A model generated the notes under the pieces. It ran no database searches. It was not told the DNA's origin and saw only the letters and a list, made by a program, of their open reading frames with translations. From a virus, in the IMG/VR virus record IMGVR_UViG_3300045996_001242, positions 1 through 64,000 of that record: a stretch of DNA of 64,000 nt; one strand, 5' to 3'. Below, piece by piece: positions 6,070-64,000 of the stretch (positions within the stretch are counted from its first letter, which is position 1; the number at the start of each line of letters is the position of its first letter). A program made the position numbers and the translations under genes.

Positions 6070-6134
6070 GTGGTGGTGGGTCAGGAATATGGATATAATG
6101 ATTACCACAAAAATAAGCTGACGCAAGGCAGATA
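6051..6134 (+). promoter_or_regulatory. GATAATC element before the terminase genes
   Basis: GATAATC at 6051-6057, in the direction of transcription, is followed by an AT-rich gap (GGATATAATGATTACC near 6088) ahead of the start at 6135. TATAAT occurs within it. This is the first gap in the rightward block after the accessory cassette, so it is a likely late promoter. Confidence 0.45.
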
Positions 6135-6944
6135 ATGACGACCCCCTCGCTTTTTAACGCGCCACCGCTGCAGTTCCCGGCCCCGAAGCCGGCCGCTCCC
6201 GTCGAGCCCGCTCCGGCTGAGACTGCTCCTACGCCGGCACCAGCTTCCTCTTCCCTGGTTCCGCTGACCGAGGACGACGTCAAGCGCGCCCTGCCGGCGC
6301 ATCTGCGCGCGTCAGTGACCCAGTCGATGGTTGACACGCTCAACCAGATCACGGCCGACCCGCTCGTCGCCGAGCAGATCCGCGGCAACTTCCTGGGCTA
6401 CTCGGGGGTCCTCAAGGAGGGGAAGTTCAAGACCGAGGATTACATCCACGCGGTCGCCTACGTCTCCTACAAGCTGATGGGCTACAACAACGAGGACAGC
6501 TACGCGCGGACCTTCCCGCAGCGCTATGCGACGCTCCTCGCCAAGGGCACCTCCAAGAAGGACATCTCGGCCTACGTCTCGGCTTATCACCGCGGCAAGC
6601 TCGTGAACCTCATCATGGAGCAATCCCTGGTTCCGACCTGGGTGCTCAACCAGGATCTCTTCCAGAAGGCGCTCAACGTCCAGGCCGATCTGATGCTCAA
6701 CGCCAACAGCGAGAAGGTGCGCGTCGAGGCGGCCAACTCGCTGCTGACGCACCTCAAGAAGCCGGAGGCCAAGGGCGAGTTCCAGATCAACATCGGCGCT
6801 CCGGACAACTCGGGCATGGGCGAGATGCGGGCTACCCTCGAGGAGCTGGCCCGGCAGCAGCGCGAGCTCATCGAGAAGGGCGCCATGAAGACGATCGACG
6901 TCGCCGGCGCCCGCCTGGTGAAGACGGAAGATCCGTCCAAATGA
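6135..6944 (+). CDS. Probable small terminase subunit (N4 gp69-like position)
   Basis: A 269-residue protein directly before the large terminase, overlapping it by 4 bases. Residues 1-45 are Pro/Ala rich and disordered. The middle is helical with small-terminase-like features: DDVKRALPAHLRASVT and YVSYKLMGYNNEDSYARTFPQRYATLLAKG, which resembles a phage terminase HTH region. NANSEKVRVEAANSLLTHL follows, and then an oligomerisation-type coiled coil (MRATLEELARQQRELIEKG). Function is inferred from position and architecture: DNA recognition for packaging. Confidence 0.65.
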   Translation: MTTPSLFNAPPLQFPAPKPAAPVEPAPAETAPTPAPASSSLVPLTEDDVKRALPAHLRASVTQSMVDTLNQITADPLVAEQIRGNFLGYSGVLKEGKFKTEDYIHAVAYVSYKLMGYNNEDSYARTFPQRYATLLAKGTSKKDISAYVSAYHRGKLVNLIMEQSLVPTWVLNQDLFQKALNVQADLMLNANSEKVRVEAANSLLTHLKKPEAKGEFQINIGAPDNSGMGEMRATLEELARQQRELIEKGAMKTIDVAGARLVKTEDPSK

Positions 6945-8617
6945 TGAGCCGCACCATCCCGGTCGGCATCGCCGATCCCACCGAGCTCGAGCTCGGCGAA
7001 AGCATCACCGGCCGGGTGATCATCAAGAAGAGCCTCGATCAATGGCTGGACGAGGTCGACTACCGGGCACTCAACGACAACACCTATGTGCCGTCCGAGT
7101 TCTCGCTCATCTACATGAACTTCATCAAGCTGGTGAACGGCGCCGAGGGCGAGAGCCACAAGACCCCGCCCGTCCACCTCAAGATGTTGGACAAGCTGGC
7201 GAATTCTACGTCGAACCAGATCGCCAACCTCTGCTTCCGCGGCGCCGCCAAGACCACGCTGTTCTTTGAATACCTGGTCCTCTTCATCGCGGTCTTCGGC
7301 TACCTGCCCGGGCTCGGCACCGTCACCGGGATGATCTACGTCTCCGACTCCATGGAGAACGGCGTCAAGTCGGCGCGCAAGAACATCGAGTTCCGCTACA
7401 ACAATTCGGACTATCTCCAGGAGTGGCTGCCCGAGGCCCACTTCACCGACAACTACCTCGAGTTCCGTAACAAGGAAGGCCATCGGCTCGGCGTCAAGAT
7501 GTTCGGCGCCAAGACCGGCATCCGCGGTACGAAGATCTTCGGCAAGCGCCCGACGCTGGCGGTCCTCGACGACCTGATCTCGGACGACGACTCGAAGTCC
7601 AAGGCCTCGATGGAGGCGATCAAGGACACGGTCTACAAGGGGATCAACTACGCGCTGGATCCAACGCGGCGCAAGATCGTCTTCAACGGCACTCCCTTCA
7701 ACAACGACGACATCATGATCGAGGCGGTCGAGTCCGGCGCCTGGGACGTGAACGTCTGGCCGGTCTGCGAGCGCTTCCCCTGCACGAGGGAGGAGTTCGT
7801 CGGCGCCTGGGAGGATCGCTTCTCCTACGACTTCATCATGGAGCAGTACGAGAACGCGGTCCTCACCGGCAAGGTCGCCGGCTTCATGCAGGAGCTCATG
7901 CTCCGCATCACCTCCGACGAGGAGCGCCTGGTCCAGGACGAGGAGATCCGCTGGTACTCGAGGACGGAGCTGCTCGCCAACAAGAGCGCCTTCAACTTCT
8001 ACATCACGACGGACTGGGCGGTCTCCGACAAGCAGACGGCCGACTTCTCGGTCATCTCGGTCTGGGCCTACAACCACAACGGCGATTGGTTCTGGGTCGA
8101 CGGCATCGTCGAGCGCCAGACCTCCGACAAGACGGTCAACGATCTCTTCCGCCTGGTTCAGGCCTCGCACCCGCAGTCGGTCGGCATCGAGGTGACCGGC
8201 CAGCAGCTCGCCTTCATCAAGTGGTTGCAGGGCGAGATGCTGACCAGGAACATCTGGTTCAACTTCGCGAGCTCGGAGAAGTCCGGCGCCGCCGGCATCC
8301 GGCCGCACACCAACAAGCTCACCCGCTTCAACCTGGTGGTGCCGCTCTTCAAGGCCGGGAAGATGTACTTCCCCCAGGAGATGAAGACCTCCCGGATTAT
8401 GGCGCATTTTCTCGGACAGATCCGTCTGGCCACAAAAAACGGCCTCAAGGGAAAAGACGACTGCCTCGATACGATTTCTATGTTAATGTACCTCAACGCT
8501 TGGAAACCGAGCGAGCAGGCCCCGCACCCGATGCAGGGCCATAATGGCGGTCCCGATTGGGACGCCGATGAGCTCGCCGACAACGAAGCCAGCCGCCTCT
8601 CCTCCTACATCGTTTGA
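6941..8617 (+). CDS. terL: Large terminase subunit
   Basis: A 558-residue packaging motor. The ATPase P-loop is RGAAKTT at residues 100-106. Walker B is LAVLDDL with D210-D211. The C-terminal RNase H-like nuclease has YITTDWAVSDKQTADFS (D358) and a late acidic motif KDDCLDTISML (D506, D510). Length matches N4-type TerL. It cuts and pumps genomic DNA into the prohead through the portal encoded at 19365. The start ATG 6941 overlaps the small subunit gene; a second ATG follows at once at 6944. Confidence 0.93.
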   Translation: MMSRTIPVGIADPTELELGESITGRVIIKKSLDQWLDEVDYRALNDNTYVPSEFSLIYMNFIKLVNGAEGESHKTPPVHLKMLDKLANSTSNQIANLCFRGAAKTTLFFEYLVLFIAVFGYLPGLGTVTGMIYVSDSMENGVKSARKNIEFRYNNSDYLQEWLPEAHFTDNYLEFRNKEGHRLGVKMFGAKTGIRGTKIFGKRPTLAVLDDLISDDDSKSKASMEAIKDTVYKGINYALDPTRRKIVFNGTPFNNDDIMIEAVESGAWDVNVWPVCERFPCTREEFVGAWEDRFSYDFIMEQYENAVLTGKVAGFMQELMLRITSDEERLVQDEEIRWYSRTELLANKSAFNFYITTDWAVSDKQTADFSVISVWAYNHNGDWFWVDGIVERQTSDKTVNDLFRLVQASHPQSVGIEVTGQQLAFIKWLQGEMLTRNIWFNFASSEKSGAAGIRPHTNKLTRFNLVVPLFKAGKMYFPQEMKTSRIMAHFLGQIRLATKNGLKGKDDCLDTISMLMYLNAWKPSEQAPHPMQGHNGGPDWDADELADNEASRLSSYIV

Positions 8618-8619
8618 TC

Positions 8620-8635
8620 GATTATCTCGATAATC
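8620..8635 (+). promoter_or_regulatory. Inverted GATTATC/GATAATC pair
   Basis: GATTATC and GATAATC are separated by two bases (TC), forming a nearly perfect 16-base palindrome in the 30-base gap between the terminase and the next gene. It is the clearest example of the motif as a symmetrical site. Confidence 0.55.
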
Positions 8636-8647
8636 CGGGTTGATTAA

Positions 8648-9409
8648 ATGCTTCTCTCCGCGCTCTTCCGCCGGCTGTCCTTTGGCGAGCTCTCCAATCT
8701 TGCGATCAGCAACTCTGGCTCGGGCACGATCGTCGAGGCCAAGTACCCGCAGCTGATCCAGTACGTGAACACCGCCCTGATCGACATCTTCACTCGCTTT
8801 GTCCTGAGCGAGAAGGAAGTGATTATCGAGCAGGTGGAAGGGCTTACGATGTACCACCTGCTGGCCAAGCACTCGGCCACCGTGGGCACCGAGGTCAACA
8901 AATACATCATCGACTCGGAGGAGGACACCTTCCGGGACGACATCGCCATCCGCATCCGCGAGGTCTGGGGCGTCGCCAATCCCACCAATCCGGCGGAAGA
9001 CGACGAGGTCGAGGAAGACCCCATCAAGTTCCCGCTGAACGATGCGGAGCACGATTACTCTCTCTTCACGCCCTCGCCCCTGTCGCTCCAGGTTCCGGAG
9101 CCCGTGGCCGGCGAGCCGCTCTCGATCATCTACCAGGCCTACCATCCGCCCCTGGTCGACGAAGAAGACGAGGAAGTGACGGAGCTGCTCGACCAGGTAA
9201 TCGATATTCCCCATTATCTTGATAATGCCCTCACCAAGCGGGTGGCATCGGAAGTCTTCTCCCACATGAACGGGCAGGAGAACATCCTCAAGGGCCAGGA
9301 GTACCTGGCCGCCTACGAGAAGGCCTGCTTCGAGATCGAGGAGCGCGATCTGGCGAACCAGTCCGCCCACACCTCCCACGACAAGCTCGAGCAGCGGGGC
9401 TTTGTCTAA
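8648..9409 (+). CDS. Head-tail/structural protein (N4 gp67-like position)
   Basis: A 253-residue acidic protein with an N-terminal helical part (QLIQYVNTALIDIFTRFVLSEKEVIIEQ), a middle acidic region (EDDEVEEDPIKFP), a strand-rich part and a long C-terminal helix (EYLAAYEKACFEIEERDLANQ). Similar small proteins sit beside the terminase in N4-like phages and are found in virions. A role as adaptor or collar between portal and tail is inferred from position only. It precedes the fibre gene by 2 bases. Confidence 0.55.
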   Translation: MLLSALFRRLSFGELSNLAISNSGSGTIVEAKYPQLIQYVNTALIDIFTRFVLSEKEVIIEQVEGLTMYHLLAKHSATVGTEVNKYIIDSEEDTFRDDIAIRIREVWGVANPTNPAEDDEVEEDPIKFPLNDAEHDYSLFTPSPLSLQVPEPVAGEPLSIIYQAYHPPLVDEEDEEVTELLDQVIDIPHYLDNALTKRVASEVFSHMNGQENILKGQEYLAAYEKACFEIEERDLANQSAHTSHDKLEQRGFV

Positions 9410-9411
9410 CC

Positions 9412-53515: not shown

Positions 53516-54025
53516 CTAGTAAAGCAGACGAGACGCCACGTAAAATTCGATCTTATCCCGGAGCATCATATACTGAGAATATGCCCGGGGATTATCGCGG
53601 AGCGTGTAGGCTTCCTCTCTGGTTCGCGCAAGCCCTTTGGCAGTCGGAACCAGGTCCTGGAGGCAGTTGGGCAGAGCATCACGCACATCTTGTGGGGTGC
53701 GGGTGTCCTTGAGGACCAGATAGAGGGCCTGCTGGATCCTGGACCGGTCGGCCTCGATGACCCGGCGGACGGTCATTATCGAGCTCGCCTCGGGAGCCAG
53801 GTCAGAAGAGAGCCGATCGTATTTGCCGCGGGAAATGGCAGCACCCGTCAGCTGGGTGTAGACCTTCCCCATGTGCTTGAACCCGTCTCTCGATCCGCCC
53901 GCCGCCATGTGCTTGGCGACGAGCTTCTCCTCGCGTTGACGGAGATGCGCCTCCTCCCGTTCGAACAGGAAGTTCACGATGGTGTGGATGCTGTAGTAGA
54001 GGGCGCTTTGAGGGCTGTAAGCCAT
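53516..54025 (-). CDS. Hypothetical helical protein (169 aa)
   Basis: The start at ATG 54025 (MAYSPQSALYYSIHTIVNFLFEREEAHLRQREEKLVAKHM) has GAGGA upstream. The product is helical, with basic and acidic patches, an Arg-rich middle (MTVRRVIEADRSRIQQALYLVLKD) and a C-terminal helix (YSQYMMLRDKIEFYVASRLLY). It lies between helicase and DNA polymerase. GATTATC (53590-53596) lies inside its coding region. Function unknown; a polymerase accessory role is possible from position. Confidence 0.6.
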   Translation of the reverse strand: MAYSPQSALYYSIHTIVNFLFEREEAHLRQREEKLVAKHMAAGGSRDGFKHMGKVYTQLTGAAISRGKYDRLSSDLAPEASSIMTVRRVIEADRSRIQQALYLVLKDTRTPQDVRDALPNCLQDLVPTAKGLARTREEAYTLRDNPRAYSQYMMLRDKIEFYVASRLLY

Positions 54026-54038
54026 GGGGAAGATCCTC

Positions 54039-55403
54039 TTAGGGGAGGGCGAGCCCTCCGTATTTGGCGGCCAGGTCCCCATAGAGGAAGACCCGGGTGC
54101 GGGCCCGAGAGAACGCTACGTAGAGCATACGGGCGACCTGCTGGGGCTGGTGGCAGGTGCTGATGTTGCCGAGGTCGACGAACACCGTGTCGTAGGTCGA
54201 GCCCTGCGACTTATGCACCGTCGCCGCGTCTCGCGGGCGAAGGTCCGCGATGTTGTTCTTGAGGTAGAAGTACGGCGTCCATTGCTTGGTGCGGGAGTAG
54301 TACCGAACCAGATCGTCGAAGTGCTGACGATCGGTCATCACCGGGACCTCATAATAGGAGTTCCCCAGGGAGTCCTGGATGTCGACGTGGTCGATATCGA
54401 GGTAGACGTCGTGGGTCTTGTCGATGAGGATCTTGCTGGCGCCGCGGTTGCGGAGGACCTCGACCTCAGTCTCGATCGGGACCTGGCCCCGCTTGTGGTG
54501 GATGACTGAGCTCGTGACCAGGTATTCGCCCTTGGTGTAGCTATCCGGCAGCTGGCGGATCGAGCGGATGTGGTTGTTGTACTCGATCACCCGCTTGTTG
54601 GTGTAGGCGAGGATGCGGGCCGCATGCGTCTGCTTCCCGAACTGTGCCTGGATCTCGGCCTGCATCTGCGCTCCATCGAGCAGGTCGATGACGCCGGGAA
54701 CCACCTGGATCGGATTGAACTGGCCGGTCGCCACGGTGTCTCTCAGCTGCTGGCAGATGCCCATCAGTGCCGGCTGGCCGGCATTGCGGACGGGCTCGAG
54801 TAGCTCGACCATCGGCGAGTCGTGCTTGTAGACCGGCGACAGGTCCTCCTGGACGGGAGCCAGCTGATGGCGATCCCCGACATAGACGAGCTTGCAGTTG
54901 ATGGTGCCTTCGTGGAGCATCTTCCAGAGCTCGGTGTCGATCATCGAGCTCTCGTCGATGAAGATGATCTTGCCGTGGTGGACCATCCAGCGGTTGGTCT
55001 TCTTGACGATCGACTTGCCCGTCGAATAGTCGTCCTTGACCGTGAGGTTGAAGAACGAATGCACGGTCCCCGCCGGCCGGCTGACGCTCTGCGAGAGCAC
55101 CTCGGCCGCCTTGTTCGTGGTCGCTGTCATGACGACGCCATCGAACAGGGGGTGGATCCCGACCAGCGCGCACATCTCGTGGTAGCGCGGCATCGTGTTG
55201 TCGATGATGTAGTTCATCAGGTAGGTCTTGCCGACGCCGGCGGGCCCCGAGATGATGAATTCCTTGTCCTCGCTGAAGAGGAACTCCATGAAGGCGTCGG
55301 CGGCTGCCTTCTGCCCCTGGTTCAGATTGTACTGCTTGGGTGCCGGAGGAGCTGCGACGCCCGGGTAGGTCATCGCGATGGTGCTGGCGGTGGCGGAGGG
55401 CAT
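54039..55403 (-). CDS. SF1 DNA helicase, RecD/Dda-like (N4 gp37-like)
   Basis: A 454-residue helicase with superfamily 1B motifs in order: FIISGPAGVGKTYLMNYI with K59 (motif I), TATTNKAAEVLS (Ia), IIFIDESSMIDTELW with D150-E151 (II), YVGDRHQLAPVQE (III), AATVHKSQGSTYDTVFVDL (V) and MLYVAFSRARTRVFLYGDL (VI). It unwinds DNA 5' to 3' in its relatives and matches N4 gp37 in size and place beside the polymerase. It starts at ATG 55403, near an ATTATC motif. Confidence 0.9.
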   Translation of the reverse strand: MPSATASTIAMTYPGVAAPPAPKQYNLNQGQKAAADAFMEFLFSEDKEFIISGPAGVGKTYLMNYIIDNTMPRYHEMCALVGIHPLFDGVVMTATTNKAAEVLSQSVSRPAGTVHSFFNLTVKDDYSTGKSIVKKTNRWMVHHGKIIFIDESSMIDTELWKMLHEGTINCKLVYVGDRHQLAPVQEDLSPVYKHDSPMVELLEPVRNAGQPALMGICQQLRDTVATGQFNPIQVVPGVIDLLDGAQMQAEIQAQFGKQTHAARILAYTNKRVIEYNNHIRSIRQLPDSYTKGEYLVTSSVIHHKRGQVPIETEVEVLRNRGASKILIDKTHDVYLDIDHVDIQDSLGNSYYEVPVMTDRQHFDDLVRYYSRTKQWTPYFYLKNNIADLRPRDAATVHKSQGSTYDTVFVDLGNISTCHQPQQVARMLYVAFSRARTRVFLYGDLAAKYGGLALP

Positions 55404-55446
55404 TAAAGGCTCACATTATCTTGTGGGTTGGTCCGAAAATGGAAAA

Positions 55447-55464
55447 CCCCGGGGTTAACCGGGG
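55447..55464 (-). terminator. Intrinsic terminator of the H-NS-like unit
   Basis: A 6-bp GC stem CCCCGG/CCGGGG with loop GGTTAA; leftward it is followed by TTTTCCATTTT. It separates the small regulatory unit from the helicase transcript. Confidence 0.65.
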
Positions 55465-55493
55465 CTTCCTACTTGATCAGGATTTGTCTGGGC

Positions 55494-55679
55494 CTAGAGC
55501 GTGTCGTAGATCCTCTCGACGTCCTCACGGGCCATCTCGGGGTGCGACAGCATCATCTGCCCGATGACCCATGATCGCCTCTGAGCGTCGATCTCGGCCT
55601 TGGTCATCGGCGGCCTGTTCCGAACCTCGGCCAGCAATCGAGCCAGCTCGGGGTCCATTGGAATGGGCTCACTCAGCAT
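55494..55679 (-). CDS. Small hypothetical protein (61 aa)
   Basis: MLSEPIPMDPELARLLAEVRN... is a charged helical protein of 61 residues ending EMAREDVERIYDTL. Its start overlaps the end of the H-NS-like gene by 11 bases, so the two are translationally linked. A second ATG at residue 8 is another possible start. It may be a partner or regulator of the H-NS-like protein; there is no direct evidence. Confidence 0.55.
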   Translation of the reverse strand: MLSEPIPMDPELARLLAEVRNRPPMTKAEIDAQRRSWVIGQMMLSHPEMAREDVERIYDTL

Positions 55680-56103
55680 CGGCGATCAGGAACTGCTCGC
55701 GGTCTTTGCCGCGGATCCAGACGGGCTCTTTGCCGCGGCCCGACCAGGTCGCCCCGCTGGCGGGATCCCGGTACTTCTGGATCGCCTTCTGGCCCTTGCG
55801 CTTGATCTTGAGACCGCCCAGGGCGTCGACGAGCTCGTCGATCGGGATGTCGTAGCTATGGACGACGCTCACGATCTGCTCGATGACGGCCCGCTTCTCG
55901 GCCTGCTGCTTCTCGAGGATCTTCCGCTGGATCTCGTCCTGCTGACGTTGCAGGTCCTCGAGGGTCATGTCAGAGGTCGGGTCGTCAGGCGCTTCCATCT
56001 GTACCTCCTTCATGTTGCTGGGGGTGGTGGTTGCCTCGTCGGCGTTGAAGACGAGGCGCTGCGTGCGGACGGCAGGTTCTTCACGAACTTCTTGCTCGGT
56101 CAT
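55669..56103 (-). CDS. H-NS-like nucleoid protein
   Basis: 144 residues from ATG 56103 (CAGGAG upstream), or 109 from ATG 55998, which has a very strong AAGGAGGT site 5 bases before it. The helical dimerisation region (LEDLQRQQDEIQRKILEKQQAEKRAVIEQIVSVV) is followed by a linker and the H-NS C-terminal DNA-binding motif: KYRDPASGATWSGRGKEPVWI and EQFLI at the end. H-NS proteins silence AT-rich DNA. In this GC-rich genome the AT-rich control regions are the obvious targets. It may also compete with the host's silencer. Two isoforms from two starts are possible. Confidence 0.85.
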   Translation of the reverse strand: MTEQEVREEPAVRTQRLVFNADEATTTPSNMKEVQMEAPDDPTSDMTLEDLQRQQDEIQRKILEKQQAEKRAVIEQIVSVVHSYDIPIDELVDALGGLKIKRKGQKAIQKYRDPASGATWSGRGKEPVWIRGKDREQFLIADAE

Positions 56104-56183
56104 TTGTTGCTCCTGGCCTACGTGGCCGTGGCAGATAAGTCGGTTTCTGAGACGCACCCTTTTCGGGTTTCGATTTTGGAGTC

Positions 56184-56206
56184 AAGAGATATTCGAGATA
56201 TCTCTT
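56184..56206. promoter_or_regulatory. Perfect 9-bp inverted repeat, operator candidate
   Basis: Arms AAGAGATAT and ATATCTCTT flank a 5-base spacer TCGAG between the HTH regulator gene and the H-NS-like gene start. The low GC of the stem argues against a terminator and for a protein-binding site, perhaps for one of the two adjacent regulators. Confidence 0.55.
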
Positions 56207-56221
56207 AAACTTTCCTGAAAA

Positions 56222-56533
56222 TCAGGCCGTGACCCCCGCCGCCGTAGTTCGGTTCACGTATTCCTTGATCAACAGGGCACGGACAAAGTCCTTGACCGTG
56301 TAGCCTGGGCCGAGCTGCTGGATCAGCCACTCCTGCTGGGCAGGGGCCAGGGCTTCGAAGATGTCCTCCATGAAGGCTCGCCGGGTATCGATGGGGTCGA
56401 TCCGCAGTTCTTTCAGCCGGTTGGAAACGGTAGTCGGGTGGACGTTGAGGCGTTCACCAATGCCGGTCAACGACAGGCCTAGGTTGTTGAATTCGATGAT
56501 CTTTCTGTCATCGGCTTTGCGCTGGTAAGGCAT
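56222..56533 (-). CDS. HTH DNA-binding protein (103 aa)
   Basis: The start at ATG 56533 (MPYQRKADDRKIIEFNNLGLSLTGIGERLNVHPTTVSNRLKELRID) is preferred because a homeodomain-like helix-turn-helix begins at once. Residues 12-46 carry the HTH. The rest is helical (RRAFMEDIFEALAPAQQEWLIQQLGPGYTVKDFVRALLIKEYV) and may be for dimerisation. Similar small proteins are common in N4-like and other phages; targets unknown. GATTATC (56548-56554) lies 15 bases upstream, and a sigma70-like promoter is further up. Confidence 0.7.
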   Translation of the reverse strand: MPYQRKADDRKIIEFNNLGLSLTGIGERLNVHPTTVSNRLKELRIDPIDTRRAFMEDIFEALAPAQQEWLIQQLGPGYTVKDFVRALLIKEYVNRTTAAGVTA

Positions 56534-56573
56534 GGGTCGGGTTCCGTGATTATCCACCATTAACTCGGGGACC

Positions 56574-56602
56574 ATTTTATTGATTATTGCACGGATTTTC
56601 AA
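56574..56602 (-). promoter_or_regulatory. Sigma70-like promoter for the HTH gene
   Basis: Leftward strand: TTGAAA, 17 bases, TAAAAT, about 40 bases before the HTH start. Spacing is ideal and the boxes differ from consensus at two positions each. It comes right after the terminator of the upstream operon. Confidence 0.6.
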
Positions 56603-56616
56603 GATACCCTTCTCAA

Positions 56617-56660
56617 GAAAAAGGACCCCCCGTTCACTGGCCAAGAGAACGGAGGATCCC
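56617..56660 (-). terminator. Intrinsic terminator of the AAA-RtcB-VWA operon
   Basis: The stem CCGTTC/GAACGG (56630-56635 with 56647-56652), extended by GC pairs on the outside, is followed leftward by TTTTTCTTG. It would end the long operon that finishes with the XRE gene. Confidence 0.65.
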
Positions 56661-56665
56661 ACCAA

Positions 56666-56896
56666 ATCCCCTCCCGGAAGAGGCGTCCGGCTCTGTGGAG
56701 TACCGTGTGCGATAGTGGGTTTCGCCTACGCCGCGGGGCGTCGCTGCGCATGCCCCGCTCTGACCACGTCACCAGAACTAACGGGAACCCAAAATGGTTT
56801 CATTGCGTCTGTCAAGCGGTAACGTACGAAAAAATGCGTACAACCCCTTGATATTATTAGGAAAATCGCCACCGGATTATGACGATTCGGGTGTGT
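56666..56896. other. Gene-free stretch with hairpins
   Basis: No coding region is supported. Visible structure: a 7-bp hairpin GCGGGGC/GCCCCGC at 56733-56758, a 5-bp hairpin GTACG/CGTAC with an A-rich loop at 56824-56841, and a perfect TTGACA on the leftward strand at 56810-56815 without a matching -10 box. With the terminator at 56617 this could encode a small RNA of about 190 bases; speculative. Confidence 0.3.
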
Positions 56897-57136
56897 TTAT
56901 TTTTCGAGTTTCTCCCGGACGGTCAGCTCCAGGCCCAGGACATTGAGGCAGGCATCGAGGTTACCGATGGTCGGCTCGGTCCTGGTCCGCCAGTCCTTGA
57001 AGGTGTTTTTGTTGATGCCGGAGCGGTCTGCCATGTCGATCGGGCCGACCTGCTGGGCATTCATCTCGACGAAGAGCCGGCGAACCAGGGGATGCGTCGA
57101 GTCGGGGATCGAGACCGGGCGAAAGCGGCGGATCAT
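56897..57136 (-). CDS. XRE-type HTH regulator (79 aa)
   Basis: 79 residues with a Cro/CI-like helix-turn-helix: QVGPIDMADRSGINKNTFKDWRTRTEPTIGNLDACLNVLGLEL is the standard pattern (helix 2 IDMADRSG, recognition helix NKNTFKDWR). It begins MIRRFRPVSIPDSTHP and ends TVREKLEK. It is the last gene of the long leftward operon, overlapped with the previous one by ATGA. It may shut down early transcription, or bind the repeated GATAATC sites; neither is shown. Confidence 0.75.
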   Translation of the reverse strand: MIRRFRPVSIPDSTHPLVRRLFVEMNAQQVGPIDMADRSGINKNTFKDWRTRTEPTIGNLDACLNVLGLELTVREKLEK

Positions 57137-57357
57137 TGGTCGTCAGGATCCCCTGGTTCGATGACTGTGCCATCGTCGCGCAGGATCTCGTGATAGAGGA
57201 CCTCGACGCCCTGGCCGTCGCCGCAGAAGTCGTGAATCGGGTCCTGGGAGGCGTTCCACGTCTCGCGGGCCAGCTCCTCAGCCTTGTCGCCGTCTTCGGC
57301 TTCAACCTCGACTTGGTAACGGACGGTCTCGACCAGCATCACTAGGAATTTGGTCAT
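57133..57357 (-). CDS. DpnD/PcfM-like small protein (74 aa)
   Basis: The start ATG 57357 gives MTKFLVMLVETVRYQVEVEAEDGDKAEELARETWNASQ..., ending RDDGTVIEPGDPDDQ. The pattern, a beta strand followed by 'VEVEAEDGDKAEELARE' and another strand, matches the DpnD/PcfM-type small proteins common in phages. Function unknown. Overlaps the XRE start. Confidence 0.6.
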   Translation of the reverse strand: MTKFLVMLVETVRYQVEVEAEDGDKAEELARETWNASQDPIHDFCGDGQGVEVLYHEILRDDGTVIEPGDPDDQ

Positions 57358-57359
57358 CG

Positions 57360-57569
57360 TCAGAACCCCAGGATCCGCATGAACCACATCTCGATGCCCT
57401 TGCCGTTGGCCTTGCGGAACTTCTCCGCGCGGGCATGGCCCTGCTCTTTGATCACGAGCTTCTTGGGCGCTCTCAGGATGTGGGTGAGCTCGCCATCGAG
57501 GTAGACGTGGACATGTCCCTCGTCGCGGATGTCGATCTCGACGAGGCCGGCGGTAATTTCAGTGGTCAT
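57360..57569 (-). CDS. Small hypothetical protein (69 aa)
   Basis: MTTEITAGLVEIDIRDEGHVHVYLDGELTHILRAPKKLVIKEQGHARAEKF... has a strand-rich N-terminal half and a basic helical end (69 residues). It overlaps the previous gene's stop, as throughout this operon. No family recognised. Confidence 0.55.
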   Translation of the reverse strand: MTTEITAGLVEIDIRDEGHVHVYLDGELTHILRAPKKLVIKEQGHARAEKFRKANGKGIEMWFMRILGF

Positions 57570-57880
57570 TGGCTATTGGTCCATTCTTCGATTTCAGTGA
57601 CCTGGGCGATCGTCAGCCCGCCATGCTTGGCGATGATGTCGATGGCTTCCCAGACTGGTTCCTCAGCGCGGTTGCGCTTGCGCTCGGGGCGGCTGCGTTC
57701 GTAGGCGTCCCAGCACTTTTCGTTGAGCTCGTCGGCGCAGGCTTTGGCGTCCGACTGCCTGGCGAATTTGACGGGCCACCTGGGGGCGGCCGGATCCTTG
57801 AAGACGTGCAGGAACGTCTCGCCGGCACGAAGGCAGAGCCGCCAGGTGCCGTCGTCGTGTTGTCGATTGGAGAAGGCCAT
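57566..57880 (-). CDS. Hypothetical protein (104 aa)
   Basis: The start at ATG 57880 shares bases with the stop of the 40-aa gene. It has 104 residues (MAFSNRQHDDGTWRLCLRAGETFLHVFKDPAAPRWPVKFARQSDAKACADELNEKCW...). The N-terminal strand pattern and a charged middle (RSRPERKRNRAEEPVWEAIDIIAKHGG) suggest a small alpha/beta fold. No function recognised. Confidence 0.6.
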   Translation of the reverse strand: MAFSNRQHDDGTWRLCLRAGETFLHVFKDPAAPRWPVKFARQSDAKACADELNEKCWDAYERSRPERKRNRAEEPVWEAIDIIAKHGGLTIAQVTEIEEWTNSQ

Positions 57881-58002
57881 CAGGGCAACAAGCTCCAGAA
57901 CAGGGCCCCGACTAGGAGCACGGCGCCCAGGGCTATGAAGCCGGCCCACAGGTAGAGCGGCCACATCGATTGAGCGGTGAGGCAGGCAGCGTCGCAGAGC
58001 AT
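57880..58002 (-). CDS. Very small membrane protein (40 aa)
   Basis: ATG 58002, preceded by AAGGA at a good distance, gives MLCDAACLTAQSMWPLYLWAGF then a hydrophobic IALGAVLLVGALFWSLLP. One transmembrane helix. TGATG overlap with the next start. The strong ribosome site and overlap make it credible despite its size. Confidence 0.65.
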   Translation of the reverse strand: MLCDAACLTAQSMWPLYLWAGFIALGAVLLVGALFWSLLP

Positions 58003-58012
58003 AGTGAGTCCT

Positions 58013-58153
58013 TCAGGAGAGGAAGTTCCAGACCAGCTGGGCGCCATAGACGATCCCAGTCGCGGTCTCGATCATGGCGATCGCGATCACGCCGCCGGCG
58101 ATCGCGCAGAACAGGGTGAACCCTGCGATCTCGAGGGAGCGCCTAAGCCGCAT
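58013..58153 (-). CDS. Very small membrane protein (46 aa)
   Basis: ATG 58153, inside the end of the 90-aa gene, gives MRLRRSLEIAGFTLFCAIAG then GVIAIAMIETATGIVYGAQLVWNFLS. Basic N-terminus, one or two short hydrophobic helices. It is followed after 10 bases by the next membrane-protein gene; the two could form a pair. Function unknown. Confidence 0.6.
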   Translation of the reverse strand: MRLRRSLEIAGFTLFCAIAGGVIAIAMIETATGIVYGAQLVWNFLS

Positions 58154-58415
58154 CCGGTAGCTCCAGCGGGATGATCTCCAGCGTCGTCCGCGGGAAGTTC
58201 TGCGTGACCCGAATCGTGAACGGCATGCCGCCGGGGTAGTCGTTCTGCCATTCCATGAGCATGGTCTCTATGTTGCTCAGGATCTCGGGCACACGGGCCT
58301 CGTTGTGGAACTCCCTCGAGAGCGGGCCGAGGTTGAGGCGGGCTTGCTTCCGCCTCTCGTATGGGTCGACGTAGCCGGCCTCCTTGGCGAGTGCCAAATC
58401 CTCGTTGAAGCTCAT
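58143..58415 (-). CDS. Hypothetical protein (90 aa)
   Basis: ATG 58415 with AAGGAG upstream gives 90 residues (MSFNEDLALAKEAGYVDPYERRKQARLNLGPLSREFHNEARVPEILSNIETMLMEW...). The end TIRVTQNFPRTTLEIIPLELPDAA is a strand pair. It overlaps the GcrA-like gene's stop. No family recognised. Confidence 0.6.
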   Translation of the reverse strand: MSFNEDLALAKEAGYVDPYERRKQARLNLGPLSREFHNEARVPEILSNIETMLMEWQNDYPGGMPFTIRVTQNFPRTTLEIIPLELPDAA

Positions 58416-59008
58416 CGACTGGTTCTCCTTGTCTGGAATAGGCGGCCCCGATGGTTGGGGCAGTAGCGTGGGTGGCCTTCGGTCCCGTGGCCGCAGAAGA
58501 GGTGCCGTTCCCCTGGAGCTGGTTCGTTGATGCCCCAGTGGCACTGGTTGGGGCCGAGCTCCCAGAGTGCGAGCTTGAGCGCCGTCCGGTCATAGGCGAG
58601 GTTGACCTCGGCGACCGGCACCTTGGCCGGCTGCTGGACCTCGCCCCGCACGTAGTTGAGCTTCTTGCGCTTGCGCTTCTCGAGGCGCGGAGCGTGCTGG
58701 CGAGGCAGCTTGTTGCCGTGCTCGTCTCGCAGCTGGCGCTGACCGGGCACACCACCTCCGCCCAGCGGATAGCTGATCCTGAGCTCGGGAACGCGGGTGT
58801 AGAAGCCCATGATCGAGTTGCGGGTCACCTGCGAGCCGGTGAGCTTGGTGAGGGTGACCGCAAGGGTCTTGGCGGAACAATTCTCGTTCCAGTTTTCGGT
58901 GATGAGCGCGACGCGATCTTCGCGGCTCAGGTCTGGCCAATGCAACATCTGGTCATTCGATTTCTGGAGTGGGGGAGGCCCGGCAGAAACCGCCGGGTGG
59001 TTGATCAT
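58412..59008 (-). CDS. GcrA-family cell-cycle regulator homologue
   Basis: 198 residues. The N-terminal region (MLHWPDLSREDRVALITENWNENCSAKTLAVTLTKLTGSQVTRNSIMGFYTRV) follows the GcrA DNA-binding pattern: W...L...W....SA..IA..L...TRNAIIG. The C-terminal region NQCHWGINEPAPGERHLFCGHGTEGHPRYCPNHRGRLFQ matches the GcrA Cys/His-type end (C-W...FCG...YC..H). GcrA binds methylated GANTC sites and sigma70 in Alphaproteobacteria. A phage copy could redirect host transcription. The start overlaps the VWA gene stop as ATGA. An internal start at MLHW is possible. Confidence 0.8.
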   Translation of the reverse strand: MINHPAVSAGPPPLQKSNDQMLHWPDLSREDRVALITENWNENCSAKTLAVTLTKLTGSQVTRNSIMGFYTRVPELRISYPLGGGGVPGQRQLRDEHGNKLPRQHAPRLEKRKRKKLNYVRGEVQQPAKVPVAEVNLAYDRTALKLALWELGPNQCHWGINEPAPGERHLFCGHGTEGHPRYCPNHRGRLFQTRRTSR

Positions 59009-60219
59009 TCGTGTAGGTGGACGATGGTCCCGTGCGGCACTTCGGCCTTCCGGTTATTGAGGGCGACCCAGATGATCGGGACGTGCGCCAGGTCCGCGGG
59101 AAGCGGGTGCATGGGATCGCACTGCAGGTCCGAGAAGATGACGACAGCGGTCGGCTTGTGCTCGATGATGTGCTCGCGCACGCAGACCAGCGAGGTGCCG
59201 CCGCGGCCGACGATCTTCACCTCGTCGACTTCGTCCTCCTCGAGGAAGACGTCTTCCTTCTGGATCTGCTCGTCGAACTGGACCATCGTCATCTTCTTCG
59301 GCTTGAAGTAGTCGTGGACGTACTTGAATTCCGAGTTGAATCTGATGGCGTCGCCGTCCGAGATCGAGCCGGAGACGTCCTCATAGTAGATGACGTGGTC
59401 GAGGCCGTTGTACTCTTCCATGAGGTCCGGCAGGTACATGTCCTGGTAGCGCCGGTTGGGGCGGGCCCAGCTGTAGTCGTGGCCGCCCAGCTCGTTGAAG
59501 AACTGGAAGAGCGCCTTGTCCCAGTCGATCTTGGGAGCAAGGAAGCGCTTCAGCGTCGTCTCGATCTCTCCGGGGATGCTGCCGCCGGCGAGCTGTGCCT
59601 GGTGGGCGGCCGAGATGACGTTGTTGAGGACCTGATGCTGCAGCGCGGCTGCGACGTCGACCTCATCTGGCTCCACGAGGTCGCCGACAAGATCGCCGAG
59701 TCCGGTCTCCGGGTTGGTCAGCCAGGGAGTTGACCAGGGCATGGCGGGGGCATTGCCCTGGCCTTGGGCCTGGTGTTTGGCGATGAGCTCGTCGCGGATC
59801 CTGACGATGTCGTCATAGACGTCCTCGGTGACCCAGCCCTCGTAGTCGAAGTTGAACCAGGGCTTGAAGCCTTTGAAGCTCTTGCCCTCGCGGATCAGTG
59901 TGTTGTTGATCAGGATGTCGGCCGCGTAGTTCCAGATCTCATGCTCCCTGGATCCACAGCGCAGCATGTCAAGCCGCGCTGGGTGCCAGAGCTCATGGAG
60001 GAGGATGGTCTCGCGGACCTCCGGCAGCAGCGAGAGGAAGAACCGAGGGTTCCACCAGAGCGTCACGCCGTTGGTGCAGGCCGTCTGTATGTCCTCGACC
60101 CAGGAGAAGTTCATCGAGCACATCAGCGGGCCGAGGAAGGCGGCGTTGCTGTTGAGGAACACCTTGGTCTTGGTGCGGTCGAACTCACGTTCGAGCAGCG
60201 TGTAGTCGATCTCGGTCAT
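59005..60219 (-). CDS. VWA protein with metallopeptidase-like N-domain (N4 gp25-like)
   Basis: 404 residues of the DUF2201 type. The N-terminal domain has LLHELWHPARLDML with HELWH at 75-79, the zincin signature. The C-terminal domain has a VWA metal-adhesion site, YYEDVSGSISD with D281, S283 and S285, and later a Thr/Asp pattern (GRGGTS, FSDLQCD). In N4 a protein of this kind lies next to the AAA ATPase; the pair resembles MoxR/VWA systems thought to act as metal-dependent chaperones. Here the two are separated by RtcB and a 73-aa gene. Confidence 0.85.
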   Translation of the reverse strand: MTEIDYTLLEREFDRTKTKVFLNSNAAFLGPLMCSMNFSWVEDIQTACTNGVTLWWNPRFFLSLLPEVRETILLHELWHPARLDMLRCGSREHEIWNYAADILINNTLIREGKSFKGFKPWFNFDYEGWVTEDVYDDIVRIRDELIAKHQAQGQGNAPAMPWSTPWLTNPETGLGDLVGDLVEPDEVDVAAALQHQVLNNVISAAHQAQLAGGSIPGEIETTLKRFLAPKIDWDKALFQFFNELGGHDYSWARPNRRYQDMYLPDLMEEYNGLDHVIYYEDVSGSISDGDAIRFNSEFKYVHDYFKPKKMTMVQFDEQIQKEDVFLEEDEVDEVKIVGRGGTSLVCVREHIIEHKPTAVVIFSDLQCDPMHPLPADLAHVPIIWVALNNRKAEVPHGTIVHLHE

Positions 60220-61658
60220 TTCCTGTCCTTCTTCTTGAGCCAGGGCTTATGACCCTCGCCCGCCATGATGGTGCCGGCCGGGATGACCTCGTCGACGATG
60301 GTGGCGAGATCGAACTTCGTGATCTGGCGACGCACCTCATCGGGCCGCTTGTAGGCACTGGGCAGCTCCGAGATGTCGGGCTTGCCGCAGTAGAAGCGGA
60401 CGTCGAGGCCCTGCGTCTCACGGTCGATGATCGTCTGCAGGTCTCGTGGCGAGATCCCTCGTGCGTCGGACGGGAACTCCTCGAGCAGGCGCTTCATGTG
60501 CGCGGTGCGCGAGAGGTTCCTGCCGGCGCCGTGTGGTGCGAAGCCCAGACCGTCGATCGGTCGGCGATCGTTCGGCATGGTGATCAGGATCGGCTGCCCC
60601 ATGTTCAGTGGGATCAGCATCTGCCCGCAATCGTCATTGGCGTAGCCGTAGTAGGACGGCGTCGAGCCCTTGGCATGATAGAAGAGCCCGTCGGCCCGTC
60701 TGAAGACGAAGTTGTGCTCGTTCCAGAAGCGGCCGACGATGGCGTTGCCAAGTCGCTGCTGCATGGCGTCGTGGATCGCGTAGTGGTTGAGCTTGGTCCA
60801 CTCGCGGACCAGCTGCAGGGCTTCCCAGTAGTCGTGGCCTTCCTGCGAGTTGGCATCGATCCAGGCTGCTGCCTTGGGCGTCCGTGGCGAGACGATCGAG
60901 GTGTGCTTCTCGGCCACAGCTTTACCACGGCGATAGACCTCGGCGCCGAAGCCTCGAGATCCATGGTGGGTGACGATCGCCAGCTGTCCGGTCGACTTGA
61001 GGTGGCCCACGAAAAAGAAGTGGTTGCCATCGCCCTGGGTCATAAATTGGCCAATGGCACGGTCCTCGAGCCCGGCAGTGAAGCGGTTTTCTGGCAGGCG
61101 GTCGATCAGCCCGGCGAACTGGGTGTCCCGGCCGTAGGCGGCCAACTGCTGCCGCGGCTGGTTGCCGAAGTGCGTCGTCTGCATGGCGACGTCGAGGACC
61201 CGGCTGACGTCCATGTCCCGCTTGAAGACGGTGATGGCCATCGAGCAGCAGGCGTCCTCGGAGTGGAAGCCCGGATGGATCGCGTCTTTGGTTGCAACCA
61301 CACCACCAACCGGGATGACGCCGGCAGCCGGACAGGCATCCGGCATGACGGCGGCGTGCATCACGGTGGGGGTGCGGACGAGCTCGTCCATCTGCCGGAC
61401 GACGCCGGCGTAGTTGACCACCTCGTCGTCGGTCTCGGCCTCGAGGAAGATGCCGAAGGGGATCGAGTTGGTGCGCAGCTGCAGCGCAGGGTCGAGTTCA
61501 GGCTCGCGAGGCTTGTAGTTGTTGGAGATGAACTCGCGGATCTCGTCGAGGGGGTACTTCCCCAAGACAGTGTTGCCGAATTCGATCGCCTCTTTGAACC
61601 AGGGGCCAGGCTTGAAGCCCCAGGCGATGAGCGTCTCGCCGGTGATCTTATCGGTCAT
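60216..61658 (-). CDS. rtcB: RtcB-type RNA ligase
   Basis: 480 residues from ATG 61658 (AGAGGA upstream). The RtcB signatures are present: SEDACCSMAI with D135 and C138 at the metal site, TQGDGNHFFFVG, VTHHGSRGFG, NEHNFVF, YHAKGSTPSYYG, and the guanylation loop APHGAGRNLSR with H376. RtcB joins 2',3'-cyclic phosphate to 5'-OH RNA ends using GTP and Mn. In phages it could repair tRNAs cut by host anticodon nucleases. It overlaps both neighbours, which places it firmly inside the AAA/VWA operon. No archease gene is seen. Confidence 0.93.
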   Translation of the reverse strand: MTDKITGETLIAWGFKPGPWFKEAIEFGNTVLGKYPLDEIREFISNNYKPREPELDPALQLRTNSIPFGIFLEAETDDEVVNYAGVVRQMDELVRTPTVMHAAVMPDACPAAGVIPVGGVVATKDAIHPGFHSEDACCSMAITVFKRDMDVSRVLDVAMQTTHFGNQPRQQLAAYGRDTQFAGLIDRLPENRFTAGLEDRAIGQFMTQGDGNHFFFVGHLKSTGQLAIVTHHGSRGFGAEVYRRGKAVAEKHTSIVSPRTPKAAAWIDANSQEGHDYWEALQLVREWTKLNHYAIHDAMQQRLGNAIVGRFWNEHNFVFRRADGLFYHAKGSTPSYYGYANDDCGQMLIPLNMGQPILITMPNDRRPIDGLGFAPHGAGRNLSRTAHMKRLLEEFPSDARGISPRDLQTIIDRETQGLDVRFYCGKPDISELPSAYKRPDEVRRQITKFDLATIVDEVIPAGTIMAGEGHKPWLKKKDRK

Positions 61659-61876
61659 TGGGTTTCCTCTTTGATGACGGCCTCGACCTTGGCGATGGCA
61701 GCCTCGAGCGTGTCGAAGGTGCCCATCTGCGGGTTCACGGGCAGCCCAGCGTGATCGTTGACGATGAACCGTCCGTGGTAGACCTGGATGCTCAGGTGCG
61801 GGTGTTCGACGCACTGGTAGGTATCGTCGACCGAGTCATCCTCGGCGGGGGTGAAGACGTAGGTCGGCCGACTCAT
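61655..61876 (-). CDS. Small hypothetical protein (73 aa)
   Basis: MSRPTYVFTPAEDDSVDDTYQCVEHPHLSIQVYHGRFIVNDHAGL..., 73 residues, strand-rich with an acidic N-terminus and a helical end (LEAAIAKVEAVIKEETQ). It is the link gene between AAA and RtcB, overlapping both by ATGA. No family recognised. Its fixed place makes a role in the module likely but unproven. Confidence 0.6.
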   Translation of the reverse strand: MSRPTYVFTPAEDDSVDDTYQCVEHPHLSIQVYHGRFIVNDHAGLPVNPQMGTFDTLEAAIAKVEAVIKEETQ

Positions 61877-62946
61877 GCTGCCACTGCGGTCGGAGTCGTG
61901 GTCGGCAGATCGTCGTGCAGATACCTCGAGATATCGACCAGGGAGCGCCGCCAGGCCGGGTGCAGCTTCAGGTCGGGCTTCTGAATCATCAGCCCGCGGA
62001 AGAAGATCACCCGCATCTCGGCGGTGAACTTGGCGATGTAGGTGGAGACCGCGTCGAAGCTGTCCCCATCGACGTGTTCGATCAGATGGGTGACCGTCGC
62101 CCAGCGGGTCGCGGCATCTTGCGGCACGTCGATCCCGTTCGGGTCCCTGACGATCTCCTGGAATCTCGGCAGAGTGGCATAGACCTTGGTGAAGGTGATG
62201 AACTCGACGGCAACGCCCGAGGTGATGGCGCCGGCATAGAGAGCTGCATCAGCTTCGACGACCTCCTGATCCTTGATCAGCTTGTTCATGAACTCCCAGG
62301 TCCGCGGCGAGCAGAAAGTCTTCTCGTTGTGGTCGGGCCGGAAGTCGTGTAAGGCGCCCTTTTTGTAGTTGAGGTAGGCGATGATGCGGCTGTCCCAGCG
62401 CTGGGGAAGGGCCACGTCCTCCATGAACTCCTGATGGTCGAGGATCATCTCGAGGGTGATGAGGCGGCTCTGCATGGCCGTCGAGAGCGGATTGACGATC
62501 GCCCGGTCGGTGGTGAGGTTGCCGGCGGCGACGATCACCACGTTGGGGTGGAGCTTGGCCAAGCCGACCATCTTATCGAGGACGAGCTTATAGGCCGCGG
62601 CCTGCACCATCTTGCTGGCCGAGTTGAACTCGTCGAGGAAGATCATCCAGCCCTGGTAACCGTCCGGGATCTTCGTGCCTTCAGTCGGGAAGGTATCGAA
62701 CGGCGCGAAGGTGGCGGTGCCGTCCTCCTTGAACCTGGGGAGACCGGTGAGATCCTCCGGCGCCGAGGTCGAAAGTCGATGATCGATCAGCTTGAGGCCG
62801 TACTCGTCGGCGATCGACTTGACGACGGCGCTCTTGCCGATGGCCGGCGAGCCCTGGAGGAAAGGAACCAGGCCCGCCAGCATGCAGCGGACGATGAACC
62901 TGCGTGCCTGGCGAGGTGTGACTTTGTAGGCGGAAATGCCCGACAT
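61873..62946 (-). CDS. MoxR-type AAA+ ATPase (N4 gp24-like)
   Basis: 357 residues. Walker A is FLQGSPAIGKSAVV with K38. Walker B is GWMIFLDEFNSASKMVQAAAY with D105-E106. Sensor 1-like VIVAAGNLTTDRAIVNPL and an arginine-type SRLITLEM follow. This is the MoxR/AAA_5 type that works with VWA partners. N4 has the same protein before gp25. Starts at ATG 62946 with GAGAG upstream. Confidence 0.88.
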   Translation of the reverse strand: MSGISAYKVTPRQARRFIVRCMLAGLVPFLQGSPAIGKSAVVKSIADEYGLKLIDHRLSTSAPEDLTGLPRFKEDGTATFAPFDTFPTEGTKIPDGYQGWMIFLDEFNSASKMVQAAAYKLVLDKMVGLAKLHPNVVIVAAGNLTTDRAIVNPLSTAMQSRLITLEMILDHQEFMEDVALPQRWDSRIIAYLNYKKGALHDFRPDHNEKTFCSPRTWEFMNKLIKDQEVVEADAALYAGAITSGVAVEFITFTKVYATLPRFQEIVRDPNGIDVPQDAATRWATVTHLIEHVDGDSFDAVSTYIAKFTAEMRVIFFRGLMIQKPDLKLHPAWRRSLVDISRYLHDDLPTTTPTAVAA

Positions 62947-62977
62947 GGGTTTTCTCTCTTGGTTCGAACGAAGGAGG

Positions 62978-63211
62978 TCAGTGCTCGTCGGACGGCAGCG
63001 GGTAGAGCCGCTTCAGCGTCTCGACGGTGAAGGGATCCGGCACGATGAGATCGAGCTCTTCGCCGAGCTCGAGGACGTACCGGGCGTAGTCCTCGCCGGC
63101 ATCGAAGGCAGCACGAGCCGCCTCGGGGTCGTCATCGATCAGCTCCGGGTAACCCCAGAGTCGGCCGGCAGCCCGCTTGGCATTGGCCTTCCACTTATCG
63201 AAGGGGGTCAT
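62978..63211 (-). CDS. Small hypothetical protein (77 aa)
   Basis: MTPFDKWKANAKRAAGRLWGYPELIDDDPEAARAAFDAGEDYARYVLELGEEL..., 77 residues, helical and acidic in the middle. Its ATG overlaps the previous stop. It lies immediately upstream of the AAA gene (31-base gap). Function unknown. Confidence 0.6.
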   Translation of the reverse strand: MTPFDKWKANAKRAAGRLWGYPELIDDDPEAARAAFDAGEDYARYVLELGEELDLIVPDPFTVETLKRLYPLPSDEH

Positions 63212-63429
63212 CAGGCGGCCTTTACGATGATGGTGACGGTGGGGGTGAACGGGCCCTTGCGAGCCGCCACCAGCTTCCTGGCGAGGATGCTGACCCTCTG
63301 CATGCGCCTGACCTCGCTAGGGCTCAGTCCGCTGCCTTGGGTCCGATATTTGAGGTAGGCGAGCTCCTCGGCGCCGATCCAGCTGATCAGGTGGTCGAGC
63401 TCGTGGTCGTCGAGTTCAAGGGTGGCCAT
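63211..63429 (-). CDS. Small hypothetical protein (72 aa)
   Basis: ATG 63429 gives MATLELDDHELDHLISWIGAEELAYLKYRTQGSGLSPSEVRRMQRVSILARKLVAARKGPFTPTV..., 72 residues, helical with a basic C-terminal half. Its stop and start overlap both neighbours by one base. A hydrophobic DHELDHLISWI helix followed by a basic region suggests a small binding protein. No family recognised. Confidence 0.6.
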   Translation of the reverse strand: MATLELDDHELDHLISWIGAEELAYLKYRTQGSGLSPSEVRRMQRVSILARKLVAARKGPFTPTVTIIVKAA

Positions 63430-63641
63430 CAGGCAGCCTCCTCGATGCGAACCAGCTTCCCGTTTTCGAAGCGGTAGTTGACGGGGTCCTCGCTCTCGAC
63501 GACGCGATAGTCGTGGACGAGTGTCCAGCGAAAGGCGAGGTCGATGACCTGAGCCAGGGCCTCTTCCTTGGTGGCGAAGCGCAGGGCGTTGCCGTACCAT
63601 TTGCCGGTGCTGTCGGTTTTGACTTCGGGCTTCCAGCTCAT
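63429..63641 (-). CDS. Small hypothetical protein (70 aa)
   Basis: ATG 63641 opens MSWKPEVKTDSTGKWYGNALRFATKEEALAQVIDLAFRWTLVHDYRVVESEDPVNYRFENGKL..., 70 residues. The pattern YGNALRFATKEEAL...VxDLAxRWxxVxDYRVVES is one seen in many small phage proteins of unknown function. One-base overlap with the next gene. Confidence 0.6.
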   Translation of the reverse strand: MSWKPEVKTDSTGKWYGNALRFATKEEALAQVIDLAFRWTLVHDYRVVESEDPVNYRFENGKLVRIEEAA

Positions 63642-63931
63642 GGGATCAGCTCCACCATTTCGTCGTTGGGTTCGTCGTTGCCAGCCTCGTGGATGCAGTG
63701 GTCCTGCAGCTGTTCGATGAGGCCGCAAAAATAGCGATCGTACTTCTCAGCACGGTCGCGAAGGTGCGTGGGGATGGGCTTCCCCTTGGATCCATCGCGC
63801 TTGCGCCAATAGATCTCGACGATCTCGGCGAAGCCCTCGCCGTCCCAGGGGCTATGGCCCCAGTAGACGTCGGCGATGACGGGCAGCCCGCCGAGGATCG
63901 TGCCCTCGCCGGTGTAGTGGGAGCCCGGCAT
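63638..63931 (-). CDS. Hypothetical protein (97 aa)
   Basis: MPGSHYTGEGTILGGLPVIADVYWGHSPWDGEGFAEIVEIYWRKRDGSKGKPIPTHLRDRAEKYDRYFCGLIEQLQDHC..., 97 residues. A strand-rich first half (VIADVYWGHSPWDGEGFAEIVEIYW) and a helical second half. It overlaps the 70-aa gene by 4 bases. No function recognised. Confidence 0.6.
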   Translation of the reverse strand: MPGSHYTGEGTILGGLPVIADVYWGHSPWDGEGFAEIVEIYWRKRDGSKGKPIPTHLRDRAEKYDRYFCGLIEQLQDHCIHEAGNDEPNDEMVELIP

Positions 63932-64000
63932 CAGGCGATCTTCCCAGTCAGCCGGGACAGCATGATCTCGAGTGCCGCCTCGAATGTCGGGCGGGCATCG
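63931..64000 (-). CDS. Hypothetical protein, N-terminus outside window
   Basis: The frame ending at 63931 overlaps the next start (ATGA) and reads ...DARPTFEAALEIMLSRLTGKIA. It is the last 22 residues or so of a gene that begins beyond the right edge. The operon therefore continues to the right of the window. Confidence 0.5.
   Translation of the reverse strand, partial: DARPTFEAALEIMLSRLTGKIA

Follow-up and report, generated by a model that had tools for sequence, protein, structure and literature searches.

The virus record IMGVR_UViG_3300045996_001242 comprises 77,644 bases, of which bases 1-64000 (64,000 nucleotides in all) form what is hereafter called the window. It comes from an N4-like phage, and at 57133-62946 its minus strand carries a series of short genes, among them one encoding an RtcB-family RNA ligase, which lies between the genes of an AAA ATPase and a VWA protein. 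This RtcB is probably a horizontally acquired accessory RNA-repair ligase that occupies a permissive slot within a core AAA-VWA protein-remodeling pair. It is of foreign ancestry in the phylogeny and is absent from the close relatives of the phage; the genes are intact, and the slot between the AAA and VWA genes varies in content from one phage to another.

The RtcB protein matches PF01139 (E=1.6e-28, 100.6 bits, with a cut-off of 27) and phrog_1075 (1e-87). Its metal and guanylylation residues (D135xxC138, N212-H213, H231, H315, and H376-GAGR) are invariant in an alignment across 20 phage and cellular relatives, and the active-site residues were partly aligned with those of PH1602. A search with the predicted model (predicted local distance difference test score, pLDDT, of 84.9) returned PH1602 RtcB as the best PDB match (E=6e-23), followed by human RTCB, and all 16 PDB matches at E <= 0.001 were chains of the RtcB/RTCB family. 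Judging by sequence and predicted model, the protein is an intact putative RNA ligase of the RtcB fold with an intact active site. RtcB is a manganese enzyme that joins 3'-phosphate or 2',3'-cyclic-phosphate ends to 5'-OH ends.

In the phylogeny, the window RtcB was placed in a clade of rhizobial phages and Rhizobiales (100 in the Shimodaira-Hasegawa-like approximate likelihood ratio test, SH-aLRT), and its nearest relatives are 56-60% identical. RtcB is common in phages, with 660 GenBank records matching one RtcB query; the nearest GenBank phage homologues, those of RHEph10, RHph_X66, and V1VFA-S, belong to the same clade and are 55-57% identical over their full length. These rhizobial phages are of approximately 115-122 kb and, unlike the window phage, have no AAA-VWA pair adjoining rtcB. 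Both the GC content of the RtcB gene and its GC content at third codon positions (GC3) match the genome, and the identification of RtcB as a recent foreign gene by composition was therefore rejected; either the gain was not recent or the donor genome was similar. The wider set of viral RtcB loci yielded three observations in their own right: (i) in Rhizobium phage RHph_X66 (L174:8381-10875), an NAD-supply pair (NMN adenylyltransferase/Nudix and nicotinamide phosphoribosyltransferase) and an RNA ligase 2 are encoded near rtcB; (ii) in Mesorhizobium phage Lo5R7ANS (L179:5004-6199), rtcB is annotated as two adjacent open reading frames (ORFs), apparently broken, beside a tRNA-Leu gene; and (iii) the viral contig L331:3068-6139 encodes, after RtcB, a DUF2828/DUF7788 protein that may have a VWA-like part.

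Among N4-like phages RtcB is rare. The five closest relatives (L014, L005, L002, L003, and L018; AAA 63-76% and VWA 57-73% identical) keep the AAA-VWA pair and have no RtcB, while two of them, L014 and L005, carry a homologue (35-36%) of the GcrA-like gene after VWA. No RtcB was found between the two genes in any of 102 distinct N4-like contigs or records that hold both and that had been fetched by AAA or VWA alone. A whole-record search of 100 N4-like records, some of which are fragments, with PF01139 gave two matches, L338 and L145; leaving aside L338, which had been chosen because of its RtcB, the gene occurs in 1 of 99 unselected records (L145), and approximately 99% keep AAA-VWA without RtcB. 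The slot itself measures at least 150 nucleotides in 60 of the 102 contigs and contains small ORFs and, in a few cases, HNH endonucleases, the cargo being unrelated from one phage to another. No fetched locus held a relative of the 73-amino-acid (aa) gene that shares the slot with RtcB in the window, and RNA-repair genes were rejected as general slot cargo, since none was recognized, among the matches listed, in 58 ORFs of other N4-like phages. RtcB is thus an accessory gene in N4-like phages, and the AAA-VWA junction is a permissive site taking in accessory genes, including homing endonucleases. Even if there were no link at all to the AAA and VWA proteins, the locus would still record RNA repair as a rare cargo of N4-like phages and the junction as an insertion site.

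The neighboring proteins are well-defined members of the N4 gp24 and gp25 families. The AAA protein matches the N4 ATPase family (2e-126) and has Walker A (GSPAIGKS) and Walker B (FLDE) motifs that are conserved in the alignment; its Pfam matches (AAA_5/AAA) are weak, and its profile matches midasin AAA domains. The VWA protein matches phrog_1314 (1.9e-116) and consists of a metallopeptidase-like DUF2201_N domain (PF13203, 3.4e-40) with an HELWH motif and a DUF2201 domain (PF09967, 1.6e-27) of VWA type. The zincin residues H75, E76, and H79 and a complete metal ion-dependent adhesion site (MIDAS; D281-S283-S285, T342, and D364) are invariant in 28 relatives, and a fold search with the model gave VWA domains; the name "HNH endonuclease" attached to this family in PHROG is supported by neither the Pfam domains nor the fold. 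An AAA protein with Walker motifs encoded together with a VWA protein with MIDAS has the features of a MoxR-VWA remodeler, and the family matches and nearness of the two genes in an N4-like genome identify the pair as that of gp24/gp25. Both proteins are among the core N4-like proteins, gp25 by CoreGenes only (PMC7650795); in roseophages, structural genes lie near gp24/gp25 (PMC4193335), and a role in virion assembly has been proposed for a viral MoxR-vWA-metallopeptidase pair (PMC7824862). As a core pair of Schitoviridae, gp24/gp25 is listed without a known role.

The first-pass annotation had suggested that the AAA-VWA pair acts on RNA or RNA-protein substrates together with RtcB. As a general statement about the pair this does not hold, given that approximately 99% of the pairs are without RtcB and that the slot holds unrelated genes elsewhere; the core function of AAA-VWA cannot be specific to RtcB because the pair stands without it in nearly all N4-like phages. 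In the explanation that we favor, RtcB would have been acquired horizontally from the rhizobial-phage and Rhizobiales gene pool and placed, with the orphan 73-aa gene, in the slot between the core AAA and VWA genes, where it would be read within their operon and expressed with the middle genes. During infection, it may re-ligate host RNAs (tRNA, tmRNA, or rRNA) with 2',3'-cyclic-phosphate and 5'-OH ends, and such repair would counter ribonucleases of the host or of rivals, while the pair would keep its core role in protein remodeling of MoxR/VWA type, most likely not RNA specific. The 77.6-kb phage record yielded no tRNA genes, and the substrate of RtcB would therefore be host RNA. Nothing at the locus points to one particular defense, be it an anticodon nuclease, a retron, or PARIS, as the target. 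It is improbable, in our estimate, that the ligase serves not tRNA repair but the repair of rRNA or the processing of the phage's own RNAs, in the manner of RtcB2-PrfH. RtcB2-PrfH protects against cleavage of 16S rRNA, e.g., by colicin (PMC9223846), and the lack of tRNA genes in the record would suit such a role, but no RF-1/PrfH-type protein was found in the record and no structured RNA was found near the locus.

Several observations weigh against treating RtcB as an independent passenger of the slot. In L338, a roseophage-like 68.9-kb contig whose AAA and VWA proteins are approximately 50% identical to known roseophage proteins, AAA (5532-6710), VWA (6755-7978), and RtcB (7989-9410) are consecutive, and in L145 a same-strand gene for a 397-aa RtcB ends 2.05 kb before AAA. 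A search of 50 RtcB-bearing viral contigs (35-84 kb) with the N4 AAA gave a strong match only in these two, and no RtcB was present in the fetched flanks of the other 17 contigs from the search with the VWA protein of L338. All three N4-like carriers found thus hold RtcB at the pair or within 2.1 kb of it, and their RtcB lineages differ: that of L338 groups with phage sequences next to Bacteroidota in another clade, and the tree forces two changes; that of L145, outside the tree, is assigned to another subfamily because it is 24% identical to the window protein and has its own set of relatives. By simple arithmetic on a sample of three, the chance of three independent insertions no more than 2.1 kb from the pair is approximately 0.0008 with the whole genome uniformly open and approximately 0.02 with insertion confined to 25 kb. 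A further case is cellular: in the Alphaproteobacteria metagenome-assembled genome L211 (3042-9302), a divergent RtcR gene is followed by RtcB, a MoxR-type AAA, and a 618-aa DUF2201 VWA protein, with RtcB directly upstream of AAA on the same strand and the AAA-VWA junction overlapping by ATGA. The parts of the open-licence literature that were available contain no description of RtcB with MoxR-DUF2201, and no relevant report on RtcB in Schitoviridae was found in the open-licence literature. As a side observation, the L338 phage has six tRNA genes (Met, Thr, Tyr, Leu, Trp, and Ser; L455:13010-14064) no more than approximately 10 kb from its RtcB-VWA-AAA block.

These recurrences can be read as signs of one functional module, in which the MoxR-like ring and its VWA adaptor act on RtcB as a client by (i) loading metal, (ii) releasing a dead-end guanylylated state, or (iii) delivering the enzyme to RNA-protein substrates. 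We regard this as unlikely, and as still less likely the stricter version in which AAA-VWA is, in the carriers, a remodeler dedicated to RtcB (for example, by metal loading or reset of the guanylylated enzyme) that arose separately in the N4-like phages and the RtcR-linked bacterial locus. In their favor are the recurrence of the adjacency in N4-like phages with different RtcB lineages, the RtcR/RtcB-MoxR-DUF2201 locus of L211, the intact MIDAS and zincin motifs of the VWA protein, and the lack of an archease in the genome, archease and PYROXD1 being the proteins that support other RtcBs; RtcB, moreover, uses manganese. By analogy, NorQD, a MoxR-VWA system, remodels its client and inserts metal into nitric oxide reductase, its operon partner (PMC9976466, PMC13036017), and CbbQO acts on rubisco (PMC4660213), both clients being metalloenzymes encoded beside their remodelers. 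On the other hand, approximately 99% of N4-like pairs do without RtcB, most RtcBs function without such partners, and no two carriers share a gene order, with RtcB between AAA and VWA in the window, after VWA in L338, and before AAA in L145. Of the 80 cellular relatives of the window RtcB, 79 have no adjoining AAA-VWA, and L211 was the only case seen beside RtcB when the DUF2201 loci that exceed the family cut-off were compared across 289 genomes of the class (one of these loci, L430, is a 5-kb contig). The closest cellular AAA-VWA pairs, L457 and L458 (68% and 46-47% identity), have no RtcB nearby, while L456 ends at a contig edge; a common cellular RtcB-MoxR-DUF2201 operon was rejected accordingly. 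If it were true, a dedicated remodeler would add a further kind of RtcB helper to archease and PYROXD1 and supply the first client for gp24/gp25.

A pure accident of gene order, with a permissive slot, irrelevant neighbors, and a region open to insertions accounting for L338 and L145, falls in our view a little short of an even chance. It overlaps the explanation that we favor, differing only in that it denies selection for co-expression, and it accords with the inserts in 60 of 102 slots, the homing endonucleases and otherwise unrelated cargo among them, and with the generality of gene overlaps in the strip. It is less easily reconciled with RtcB adjoining VWA in two lineages and lying near the pair in a third, with no N4-like carrier found that has a distant RtcB. 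The clustering at the pair, in three carriers, is suggestive, and the slot is permissive. While the acquired accessory ligase remains our preferred explanation, RtcB could have been recruited as a client of AAA-VWA in a few carriers, and the independent placements at the pair, together with a bacterial RtcR locus in which all three families occur, provide a concrete client to test. On the sequence comparisons made here, a working AAA-VWA-RtcB partnership is possible, and a true machine is a live minority hypothesis. The first-pass interpretation was half right: the neighborhood is no isolated occurrence, because the adjacency of RtcB and the pair recurs in L338, with another RtcB lineage, and in L211, but it is rare and variable in order. 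The result that would have refuted the annotation on its own terms, one occurrence in a position that does not repeat, was accordingly not obtained.

The genes, coordinates, and ATGA overlaps given by that annotation were confirmed (Table 1). The overlaps occur at the AAA/73-aa ORF, 73-aa ORF/RtcB, RtcB/VWA, VWA/GcrA, and GcrA/90-aa ORF junctions. They would allow the proposed translation of these genes as one set, since coupled translation is compatible with them, but they show no special tie and were rejected as evidence of a special unit, because overlaps are the rule in the strip (12 of 15 junctions). The RtcB start was set at the ATG at 61658; a listed 532-aa ORF from a GTG would overlap most of the 73-aa gene.

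Table 1. Genes at and around the AAA-VWA junction, in window coordinates
Feature	Position	Strand	Remarks
AAA+ ATPase, N4 gp24 family	61873..62946	-	357 aa; phrog_1297, Walker motifs
73-aa orphan ORF, AAA-VWA slot	61655..61876	-	No match in Pfam or PHROG
RtcB-family RNA ligase	60216..61658	-	480 aa from ATG; PF01139, phrog_1075
VWA protein, N4 gp25 family	59005..60219	-	404 aa; metallopeptidase-like N-terminal domain and VWA domain
GcrA-like regulator	58412..59008	-	198 aa; PF07750, 8.5e-10
90-aa ORF coupled to the GcrA-like gene	58143..58415	-	No family found (Pfam, PHROG)

The genome is that of an N4-like phage, with N4-type family matches for the virion RNA polymerase (3583 aa; phrog_2206, E=0), RNAP1, RNAP2, portal, major capsid protein, and primase; it also has genes for a DNA polymerase and a Dda-like helicase. 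Just right of the window, at record positions 65171-66319 on the minus strand (L454:2172-3320), lies a tyrosine integrase gene (phrog_1, E=2.4e-30). The N4-like family is generally considered lytic, and this integrase-bearing phage may be, or may once have been, temperate.

Compared with known RNA-repair systems, the locus resembles the bacterial rsr-Y RNA-rtcBA operon, controlled by RtcR, in that RtcB lies beside a VWA-domain protein. RtcR is activated by cut tRNAs (PMC7790460). The 80 cellular relatives of the window RtcB come mostly from Rhizobiales; in 37 of them an Rsr gene lies near RtcB, and nine from Bacteroidota have a WYL regulator. However, Rsr is a TROVE-vWA protein, whereas the window VWA protein combines DUF2201 with a metallopeptidase-like domain; it contains DUF2201_N and DUF2201 only, with no TROVE domain, and a TROVE query found nothing in the window. 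RtcR had no match in 56000-77644 of the record, and no credible Rfam match to a Y RNA was obtained in 54000-64000, although undescribed Y RNAs could escape such a search. Membership in a Ro/Rsr operon was rejected on these grounds, and the parallel drawn by the first-pass annotation is only thematic, because the VWA protein lacks the TROVE domain. PrfH (RF-1 domain, PF00472) and archease (PF01951) were not found in the record, and both were rejected as partners. The L211 locus shares with the window RtcB, a MoxR-type AAA, and a DUF2201 VWA, but it is cellular and RtcR linked, has the order RtcB-AAA-VWA, was seen once, and its RtcB belongs to an Rsr-linked clade. NorQD, CbbQO, and RavA-ViaA share with the window pair an AAA ring and a VWA/MIDAS adaptor encoded side by side; the genes of NorQD and CbbQO lie near that of the client enzyme, whereas the N4 pair has no known client. 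A close counterpart is the gp24-gp25 pair of N4 in the Schitoviridae, which is of the same families (phrog_1297 and phrog_1314) in the same order and on the same strand; in N4-like relatives the slot between the two genes is empty or holds small ORFs, whereas in the window it holds rtcB and the 73-aa gene.

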